A stretch of DNA of 48,523 nucleotides. Origin: Curvivirga aplysinae (GTDB lineage Bacteria > Pseudomonadota > Alphaproteobacteria > UBA8366 > Aestuariispiraceae). Each line of letters begins with the position of its first letter. The stretch's first letter is position 1. The notes under the pieces were generated by a model. The model saw nothing but the letters and a program-made list of their open reading frames with translations. It ran no database searches and was not told where the DNA came from. The translations under genes and the position numbers were made by a program. The DNA lies in assembly GCF_009711445.1 (NCBI RefSeq), contig NZ_SMMC01000203.1, forward strand, positions 1 through 48,523, read 5' to 3'. Shown here in pieces: positions 32,345 through 34,831 of the stretch.

Positions 32345-32706
32345 TCAGTGCCTCCATTATGAGAAATAGAGGTTGCTTGAGTGGTATTTGTAACTGTGGC
32401 GCTGGACGGTGTTACTTTTTCGTCCTCAATGCGAAATGGCAAAGTTTGGAAAGATACAAACTGACGTGCCTCAACAGGTTGCATTTGTGGCAATAGGTTT
32501 TCCGTCAATTTTTGAATACGATCCGGACGATTGAAATAACTCCATTCCGCCTGCAACATATGAATGTTTTCTTGTTCTTTGATAATCTGACGGTTCAGGT
32601 TCACTAATTTATCTTCTAATGCTTCCACTTGAAGTGTGACATAGAAGAGGCCAGATGCAGCAATGATGAATCCAATAACCCAGCAAACGATAATGGTCAT
32701 TCTCAT
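32341..32706 (-). CDS. ftsL: FtsL-like division protein
   Basis: A small bitopic protein with one N-terminal transmembrane helix (about residues 4-24) and a short coiled-coil stretch (about 25-60, [19 protein letters not shown]). A polar Ser/Thr-rich tail ends the protein. Sequence is poorly conserved, so the call rests on topology, size (121 residues) and its place between rsmH and ftsI. I chose the ATG at 32706 because it overlaps the rsmH stop in an ATGA junction like its neighbours, with GGGGAG 9 nt upstream; an in-frame ATG at 32721 would add five residues. Confidence 0.85.
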
Positions 32707-33665
32707 TTGATTTCTCCCCATGCATCAGCTTCGGTACGGATCGCCGCACGTAGCTTGGAAGAACGTGAGCGCGGATTTTCTTTGATTTCATCGTCCTGCG
32801 GAGGTAAGGCGCGCTTGGTCAAAACATTAAAACTCGGTTGTTTTAATTTGCTTTCATCAATTGGTAGGTATCGATTAGTACCGCTACCGCTTACCTTATT
32901 GCGATCGCGTAGGAATTGTTTAACACGGCGGTCTTCAAGGCTGTGGAAAGATACAACAACCAAACGACCATTCGGCGCCAATAATTCTTCTGCAGCTGAT
33001 AGGGCGCGATCTAATTCGCCTAACTCGTCATTTACTTCGATGCGAAGGCCTTGGAAAGTACGTGTGGCAGGGTCGATACCATCATTTGCTTTTCGCACAA
33101 CGGATCGTACGATATCAGCTAGCTGTAAGGTCGTTTCAATAGGGCTGTCTTGACGTGCTTTTTCAATAGCACGCGCCACACGACCTGCATGACGTTCTTC
33201 GCCATAATCACTGAAAATGCGCGCCATTTCACGCCATTCCCATGTGTTTACAATATCTGCTGCTGTTGGCCCCGTGTCACCCATTCGCATATCAAGTGGG
33301 CCATCTTCACGGAAAGAAAAACCGCGCTCAGCTACATCTAATTGTGGTGAGGACACACCTAGATCCAGCACGATACCGTCTAGCTGCCCAATACCTTTGT
33401 CTGCAAGCAAGTCTTTCATATCGCCAAAACAGCCAAGTAACATTTTCAGGCGACCATCAAATTCTTCAACGATTGGTTTTGCACGTTCATGGGCAGTCGG
33501 ATCACGATCTACCGCATAAAGGGTACAATCTGCTGCTTCTAAAATGGCGCGACTATAACCACCTGCACCAAAAGTACCATCCAGATATACTTCACCTGCC
33601 TTAGGCTCCATATACTGAACCACTTCGCGCAACATTACAGGGTAGTGAACTTGCTGGGCAGACAT
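32703..33665 (-). CDS. rsmH: 16S rRNA m4C1402 methyltransferase RsmH (MraW)
   Basis: A 320-residue SAM methyltransferase acting on N4 of 16S rRNA C1402. The N-terminal HYPVMLREV and the SAM motif [16 protein letters not shown] at 27-42 are diagnostic. [15 protein letters not shown] and [13 protein letters not shown] follow, and the C-terminal [13 protein letters not shown] completes the family pattern. The start overlaps the mraZ stop (TAATG). It is part of the universally conserved mraZ-rsmH-ftsL start of dcw clusters. Confidence 0.97.
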
Positions 33666-34120
33666 TAGCGTTCCCCTCTCGGTTTTAGTTTGAGGGTCAT
33701 GCCTTTTGCACGTTGCTTCTTAATTGGTGCGCGTTCGGCGTAATTATCTGGGTGCCAGATTTGAAAGCGTTGGAACATACCAACAAATGTTGCGCGCCCT
33801 TCAATTTCCGCATAATCGCGAAATTCAGCAGGCAGAACAAAACGACCAGTGCTATCGAAAGAAACACGACGGGCTTCTGAGGCGATATATGTCAAACCGT
33901 CTTCTTCTTCGGAAAACATATCTGCTTGCTCTTCGATGCTTTCTTCCACGCGTTGCATGAAACGATCGTCACAAGCTTCTAAACAGTCAAGATTAGGGGA
34001 GGGGAAGACATAAAAGCTGACTTCGTCTTGGCGTTTCAGAACGTCGCGGAAATCCGCCGGTAAGGAGGCGCGCCCCTTATCGTCTACTTTCCCTTCAAAT
34101 GTCCCTGTAAAACGGGCCAT
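33665..34120 (-). CDS. mraZ: Transcriptional regulator MraZ
   Basis: A 151-residue AbrB-fold DNA-binding protein with the two MraZ repeats: [15 protein letters not shown] near 11-25 and [15 protein letters not shown] near 87-101. MraZ forms a ring-shaped oligomer and represses its own dcw promoter by binding repeated TGGG boxes. The frame stays open upstream to 34207, but family alignment begins at [11 protein letters not shown], so I start at 34120, which has GGGAAG about 8 nt upstream. That Shine-Dalgarno lies inside a TGGGAA box. First gene of the division cluster. Confidence 0.95.
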
Positions 34121-34127
34121 TACACTC

Positions 34128-34233
34128 TTCCCAGTTCTGTTTAGCCAATTCCTTGTTGAAGTCATAAGACTTCTACCCATATGTAATGGGAATATAATCA
34201 ATATCATGGGAATCTATGGGTTGTCAATGGGAA
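34128..34233. promoter_or_regulatory. Promoter-proximal MraZ-type box array
   Basis: TGGG cores on the plus strand start at 34187, 34207, 34217 and 34228 (steps of 20, 10 and 11 bp; three are followed by AA). Opposite-strand copies (CCCA) lie at 34130-34133, overlapping the mraZ Shine-Dalgarno, and at 34176-34179. E. coli MraZ binds TGGGN boxes repeated every 10 bp. Here they occupy the -35 edge, the spacer and the start-site region of the mraZ promoter. Confidence 0.6.
34198..34227 (-). promoter_or_regulatory. Probable dcw (mraZ) promoter
   Basis: On the minus strand, TTGACA (34227-34222) is followed after 18 nt by TATTGA (34203-34198), about 70-80 bp before the mraZ start codon. It is embedded in the TGGG/CCCA boxes listed separately. 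Confidence 0.55.
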
Positions 34234-34352: not shown

Positions 34353-34392
34353 CCCATAACTTCCCACGAATTTTTCCATGGGAAGGCATGGG
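34353..34392. promoter_or_regulatory. Distal palindromic double MraZ-type box
   Basis: CCCA cores at 34353 and 34363 (10-bp step) face TGGG cores at 34379 and 34389 (10-bp step). A perfect 12-bp inverted repeat (34355-34366 with 34389-34400) is part of the element. It lies about 130 bp upstream of the promoter-proximal array. Confidence 0.5.
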
Positions 34393-34440
34393 AAGTTATG
34401 AATGGAGGGTGATAGGAATTTAATCAGATGGAGATTGAGC

Positions 34441-34476
34441 ATAAAAAAACACCCTCAACTTGTGAGTTGAGGGTGT
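34441..34476 (-). terminator. Rho-independent terminator after the metZ-rhodanese pair
   Basis: A perfect 12-bp stem (34476-34465 with 34460-34449, acaccctcaact type) with a 4-nt loop is followed on the minus strand by seven Ts. It insulates the division cluster promoter from the upstream genes. Confidence 0.88.
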
Positions 34477-34500
34477 TTTAAAAAACGAATATTTTAAGAT

Positions 34501-34831
34501 TTAGCCGGTTTCAACATCATATCCACGTTGCGCCCAACCAAGAATGCCTTCTTCCATATGGACGACATTCTCGTATCCTACTTCAAGAAAAAGGCCGAAG
34601 TAATCCGTGGTGCGGTTTTCCGCTGCGACAATGGAATATTGCTGTTTTTCCGTCTGCTGGCGGGAATGTGCTATCAGAGAAACGAGTAAGGGGGGCATGT
34701 ACTGCACCAGGAATTTTTCCTGCTGCCCATTCTTCATCTTCACGTACGTCAATTAAGAAACCTCGGCCTTCATCAATAAGAATTTTGGCTTCTTCTGGAT
34801 TAATTCCAACCACTTCAAATTCAATACTCAT
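34501..34831 (-). pseudogene. Rhodanese-domain protein, interrupted by a +1 frameshift
   Basis: Two overlapping frames together spell one complete single-domain rhodanese (about 109 residues). The first runs from the ATG at 34831 (MSIEFEVVGINPEEAK, LIDVREDEEW, GAVHAPL) to the active-site loop HCRSGK, then goes out of frame. The second resumes at RTTDYFGLFLEVGY and ends at 34501 (GILGWAQRGYDVETG). Removing one C of the CC at about 34613-34614 on the complementary strand gives the canonical loop CRSGKRT and a 110-codon gene. As read, the product stops after about 82 residues and lacks the C-terminal half. It lies 33 bp after metZ and is probably co-transcribed; a role in sulfur transfer is plausible. 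A sequencing error is the main alternative to real decay. Confidence 0.8.

Follow-up and report, generated by a model that had tools for sequence, protein, structure and literature searches.

Few bacterial regulators are as conserved as MraZ, whose gene heads the division and cell-wall (dcw) cluster; most descriptions of MraZ sites come from E. coli, Burkholderia, Corynebacterium, and mycoplasmas. The mraZ locus of Curvivirga aplysinae raises the question of whether the short repeated boxes lying around its promoter form a site through which MraZ controls its own operon, and what their orientation, opposite to that expected relative to the gene, means for such control. This was addressed in the window (the whole 48,523-nucleotide stretch of DNA analysed) and in the mraZ upstream regions of other bacteria.

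Gene context and box array at the mraZ promoter

The mraZ gene is located on the minus strand (33665..34120) and codes for a protein of 151 amino acids, with an ATG at 34120 assigned by alignment with homologues; a longer open reading frame (ORF) from 34207, which would start within the box array, was not supported by that alignment. The product matched Pfam PF02381 in two stretches (E 1.1e-16; 61 bits as compared to a curated cut-off of 23) and was intact, with D-x3-R in both repeats and D13/R17 and D89/R93 invariant among the aligned homologues. The gene was the first of the dcw cluster and was followed on the same strand by rsmH (mraW; 32703..33665; Pfam PF01795, E 2.7e-101), ftsI, a Mur ligase, a glycosyltransferase-4 family protein (mraY-like by its place), a further Mur ligase, ftsW, a glycosyltransferase-28 protein (murG-like), ftsQ, ftsA, and ftsZ.

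Exact listing placed TGGG starts at 34187, 34207, 34217, and 34228 of the plus strand and CCCA starts at 34130 and 34176, in agreement with all six coordinates of the original prediction. Read on the mraZ (minus) strand (CCCATTGACAACCCATAGATTCCCATGATATTGATTATATTCCCAT), the array consisted of CCCAT boxes with 5' ends at 34231, 34220, 34210, and 34190, separated by steps of 11, 10, and 20 bp and thus occupying offsets 0, 11, 21, and 41, with offset 31 empty; the helical spacing claimed for the first three was confirmed. The boxes surround a TTGACA-18-TATTGA promoter, likewise predicted, whose -35 hexamer (34227-34222, minus strand) and -10 hexamer (34203-34198) are 18 bp apart. A promoter scan found the same -35 hexamer but preferred GATATT with a 16-bp spacer, at nearly the same place, so the -10 hexamer may be either TATTGA or GATATT.

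When placed in the register of the class-wide array, the boxes of the window filled slots -2, -1, 0, and +2. Slot -2 (CCCA, 34228..34231, minus strand) abuts the -35 hexamer, the next T being the first T of TTGACA, and slot -1 (34217..34220, minus strand) lies within the spacer, which bears out the earlier statement that the boxes cover the -35 edge and the spacer. Slot 0 (CCCATG, 34207..34210, minus strand) shares its TG with the extended -10 (TGATATTGA, 34198..34206, minus strand; class consensus TGnTATCCC), and slot +2 occupies 34187..34190 on the same strand. Slot +1 (34197..34200, minus strand), which overlaps the -10 and in most relatives carries a CCCA forming its 3' half, reads TGAT here and has lost its box. 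As judged from the sequence, the boxes occur once per helical turn on the same face of the DNA, interlaced with a sigma-70 promoter.

The extended core had been proposed to be TGGGAA. This did not hold, as the copy at 34217 reads TGGGTT and the core common to the window and the class is ATGGG(A/T), the class consensus being TCCCAT/ATGGGA; moreover, TGGGAA occurred in the window 40 times vs. 30 expected, mildly above background. The copy at the mraZ Shine-Dalgarno (34130, TGGGAAGAG), counted earlier as a further box, and the one at 34176 were treated as non-boxes because of their wrong orientation and their location off the conserved positions of the class array; according to this comparison, the Shine-Dalgarno copy is probably not a MraZ box.

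In 20,000 rounds of dinucleotide shuffling, the 319-bp intergenic region upstream of mraZ rarely reproduced such an arrangement (P = 0.001 for a chain of at least three boxes at 10/11 bp; P = 1e-4 for at least four boxes with one empty slot; P = 1e-4 for at least 11 boxes in all). In the 3.56-Mb genome, CCCAT-N5/6-CCCAT-N5/6-CCCAT occurred a single time, as the array of the mraZ promoter. Looser CCCA triples occurred four times, and the three besides that of mraZ all lay within ORFs, on which ground a wider regulon in the own genome was rejected.

The earlier list of boxes, correct in all its coordinates, had overlooked a second cluster at 34353..34400, where two CCCA (34353/34363) and two TGGG (34379/34389), 10 bp apart within each pair, accompany a perfect inverted repeat of 12 bp. 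It is situated between the mraZ promoter and a predicted intrinsic terminator of the upstream gene (34446..34479, minus strand) that would isolate this promoter. Additional upstream pairs at 10/11 bp were found in 25 of 213 alphaproteobacterial loci vs. 2.6 expected from a mononucleotide shuffle, a few of the loci being duplicates. The cluster is a possible, if weak, candidate for an auxiliary MraZ operator. Farther upstream, a rhodanese-like gene (34501-34831, minus strand) appeared to be split over two frames (34583-34831 and 34501-34752), as would result from a frameshift or a sequencing error. In 13 of 17 alphaproteobacterial relatives tested, an RNase P RNA gene was located just upstream of mraZ, either on the same strand (L046, L049, L056, L057, L060, L065, L072, L083, L101, and L111) or divergent from it (L069, L098, and L112); no match to this gene was found in the window.

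Conservation of the array in Alphaproteobacteria and its co-occurrence with mraZ

MraZ genes were gathered from 59 relatives, 80 named contigs, 241 genomes of the class, and 150 genomes of the phylum, and their upstream DNA was extracted. Absence of the boxes from relatives had been named as grounds for refuting the original prediction, and the comparison showed the opposite. At least two CCCA boxes at 10/11-bp steps were present in 208 of 230 alphaproteobacterial mraZ upstream regions and at least three in 159 (shuffle rates of about 1.4% and at most 0.02%, respectively). Removal of near-duplicates left 189 and 144 of 208 loci, respectively, and in this reduced set 431 of 668 distances between neighboring boxes were exactly 10 bp. 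Most of the exceptional loci displayed CCAT-type boxes instead, at equal spacing. Among 29 relatives, 12 of 14 strict matches were located upstream of mraZ.

The loci were then aligned on an anchor consisting of CCCATGnTATCCCAT plus TTGAC with a score of at least 15, a value reached in 1 of 690 shuffles. Anchoring worked in 218 of the 230 regions, in which the register of the array relative to -35 and extended -10 is preserved; an anchor search is biased toward its own letters, and the free positions are the better evidence. The resulting class consensus was TCCCATTGAC.CCCATaaaATCCCATGaTATCCCAT, a layout in which boxes, -35, and extended -10 are interlaced. TTGAC, present in 169 of the 218 anchored loci, preceded CCCATG by 11 or 12 nt, which corresponds to a promoter spacer of 17 or 18 bp. 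TGnTAT was near-invariant with n free (A 133, C 32, T 31, and G 22), a pattern that we take from the alignment as the signature of an extended -10. Slots -2 to +2 were filled in 38, 69, 86, 76, and 50% of the anchored loci, respectively. The class -10, TATCCC, has no T at position -7, as is usual among Alphaproteobacteria (PMC8407463). Around 13-15 nt upstream of TTGAC, many loci of the class (among them L121, L143, L149, and L217) shared a sequence resembling TTTTACT, its T and C occurring at about 60%; it could be an UP element or the site of another factor.

In genomes without mraZ the array was missing upstream of rsmH, with one exception. Twenty-nine alphaproteobacterial genomes had no MraZ match and were confirmed as negative with Pfam, and rsmH upstream regions were obtained from 26 of them. 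A CCCA chain was found upstream of rsmH in one of these 26 genomes in contrast with 208 of 230 regions upstream of mraZ. Of 29 comparison genomes with mraZ, 23 had a strict triple array, in every case at this gene (one of the positive genomes, G079, had one further stray strict match); of the 29 mraZ-negative genomes, 2 had one. The latter two arrays (G349 and G369) were discarded as MraZ arrays at the dcw cluster, being away from rsmH; the one in G349 (L376, 1501-1563) is a tandem repeat of about six CCCATTATAT units inside an ORF, whose resemblance to a MraZ array is probably coincidental. Loss of the array together with mraZ fits MraZ as the ligand, as far as genome comparison can indicate, and could instead reflect deletion of the whole promoter.

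Orientation of the probable operator and weighing of the explanations

The reversed orientation noticed in C. aplysinae was the rule in its class. Antisense boxes, that is, CCCA on the sense strand, were found in 220 of 230 alphaproteobacterial regions (8 ties and 2 sense), whereas among 44 regions of other Pseudomonadota, E. coli included, 30 had sense GTGG chains, 14 were ties, and none was antisense. This indicated that the opposite orientation is a property of the class and not an oddity of the species. In the same 44 regions the arrays mostly began downstream of the -10, the first GTGG usually lying 36-38 nt past the start of TTGAC where a TTGAC was found nearby. In several non-alphaproteobacterial loci (L251, L258, L272, L286, L288, and L289), the sense GTGGG array was accompanied by a CCCAC pair of opposite orientation, spaced at 10-11 bp and lying some 200-285 bp ahead of mraZ.

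The window shows what is general to MraZ operators, namely helically spaced direct TGGG-type repeats ahead of mraZ (boxes at 0, 11, 21, and 41), and this pattern is conserved in the class. The E. coli promoter Pmra (sequence NC_000913.3) is alike in having three TGGG boxes at 10-bp steps, the periodicity invoked by the original prediction, in its TTGACA-18-TAAACT promoter with the same 18-bp spacing, and in the position of mraZ as the first gene of the dcw cluster; the core of the window boxes equals the E. coli MraZ core on the opposite strand. In contrast, E. coli carries TGGG on the sense strand and downstream of the -10, whereas the window array has CCCA on the sense strand and spans from the -35, through the spacer and the extended -10, to just past the -10, with four boxes in five slots. 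The MraZ site of Burkholderia cenocepacia comprises four 7-nt repeats with 3-nt spacers, on a fragment that MraZ binds in gel shift (PMC7761207); it shares the 10-bp period but, like the E. coli site, lies past the -10, where it covers the start site (PMC7761207). In Mollicutes, as far as the work of Fisunov et al. (2016) is cited in PMC7761207 and PMC5138195, recognition by an octameric ring of MraZ has likewise been proposed for repeated short boxes, but these have a GTG-type core, activation is reported, and the lineage is phylogenetically remote. The layout found here is a variant of a known operator; an earlier description in Alphaproteobacteria is possible, the literature search having covered open papers.

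All these comparisons point to the boxes being the MraZ operator of the dcw operon in an alphaproteobacterial form, with autorepression by exclusion of polymerase, a reading to which we assign a probability of around 85%. The empty slot +1 of the window weighs against it. Chance clustering of a common tetranucleotide would agree with TGGGAA being no more than mildly in excess in the window; it is practically negligible as an explanation in view of the shuffle probabilities of 1e-3 to 1e-4, and it is refuted by a spacing, orientation, and register that are conserved almost throughout the class. That the repeats are promoter sequence only, reflecting what the alphaproteobacterial polymerase prefers in spacer and extended -10, would agree with the conservation of TTGAC and TGnTAT within the array, but the boxes reach past the promoter elements (slots -2 and +2) in strict 10-bp steps, and strict arrays, apart from the two set aside above, are near-unique to mraZ in relatives and absent from genomes lacking mraZ, so that we consider this very improbable.

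The boxes might also belong to another regulator of the dcw promoter, such as NtrX, CenR, or CtrA, with MraZ acting elsewhere. In Rhodobacter sphaeroides, NtrX and CenR do bind DNA upstream of mraZ (PMC7240162, PMC9275681), and in S. meliloti a CtrA motif has been reported there (PMC3616915). However, the published NtrX (GCA-N9-TGC) and CenR (TGA-N8-TGA) motifs differ from the boxes, the CCCAT array is gone from the dcw region where mraZ is absent, and the core is that of E. coli MraZ on the other strand; this ownership is quite improbable. It is unlikely, too, that MraZ binds the array but activates or fine-tunes transcription instead of occluding the promoter. MraZ has been described as an activator in mycoplasmas, as cited in PMC7761207, but it is reported to repress in E. 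coli (PMC7761207), and the present array covers the region from -35 to -10, where a bound protein would normally block polymerase. Since activation in other lineages such as Mollicutes is mentioned in that source (PMC7761207), we infer the sign of the regulation here.

The operator reading with autorepression would work as follows. Several protomers of one MraZ ring would each grip one box, the first box touching the -35, the second lying in the spacer, and the third providing the TG of the extended -10; the bound ring would then cover the promoter from -35 to -10 and exclude RNA polymerase. MraZ would in this manner repress its own operon (mraZ, rsmH, ftsI, and the mur and fts genes onward) by direct competition, and it probably shuts off the whole dcw cluster by sitting on this promoter. 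In C. aplysinae the box over the -10 would have been lost and the further box at slot +2 kept. E. coli and the other non-alphaproteobacterial Pseudomonadota have the opposite array orientation, mostly with a start just past the -10, so that in them MraZ would be expected to act at initiation or later. The original prediction of a reversed, promoter-occluding MraZ operator was supported, and we infer from DNA comparisons both the binding and the occlusion.

A LexA-type box and possible implications for dcw control

A second element accompanied the array in about half of the class. Of 230 alphaproteobacterial loci, 114 had GAAC-N7-GAAC in the 400 bp preceding mraZ vs. 2.6 expected, each other spacer length giving at most 9, and none of 44 loci of other Pseudomonadota had it; with near-duplicates removed, the figure was 102 of 208 (examples are L042, L049, L057, L101, and L142). 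Its consensus was AGAACATAA.a.GAACA. Where checked, the box lay between rnpB and mraZ. Its distance upstream of the array was 57 bp in one group and had a median of 172 bp among boxes at 150-205 bp, and its helical phasing with the array showed weak coherence. GTTC-N7-GTTC is the Caulobacter LexA motif (PMC12700426), and in ten test genomes the motif was present upstream of the top lexA match in 8 of 9 cases and of recA in 6 of 10. In C. aplysinae it was found upstream of lexA, and neither GTTC-N7-GTTC nor its complement had a match upstream of mraZ in the window.

Other readings of this element were considered and discarded. CenR and NtrX have different published motifs; rnpB was rejected on the basis of the group with divergent rnpB, where the box is closer to the mraZ array (57 bp) than to rnpB; and inspection of 27 loci by eye revealed no conserved ORF for a small SOS peptide between box and array. 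A report tying a LexA-type box to mraZ in Alphaproteobacteria was not found in the open literature, the nearest precedent being a gut-microbiome homologue of mraZ that has a LexA site (PMC3998124). The motif and its position suggest a putative SOS input to the division cluster.

Taken together, we tentatively propose, at something short of even odds, that the alphaproteobacterial dcw master promoter is built from the boxes of its own repressor, with a flipped operator on the -35 and extended -10 that would set MraZ against sigma-70 polymerase (in E. coli and its kin the operator is downstream), and that a LexA-type SOS box, found in roughly half of the class at an almost constant distance upstream and lost in C. 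aplysinae, would add a DNA-damage input. A class-wide inverted operator interlaced with the promoter provides a ready consensus for alphaproteobacterial models and predicts a different mode of repression, by occlusion of the core promoter. The alphaproteobacterial and non-alphaproteobacterial layouts constitute a natural experiment on operator polarity and a ring-shaped repressor, and if the LexA-type box is functional, it would couple dcw expression to DNA damage.
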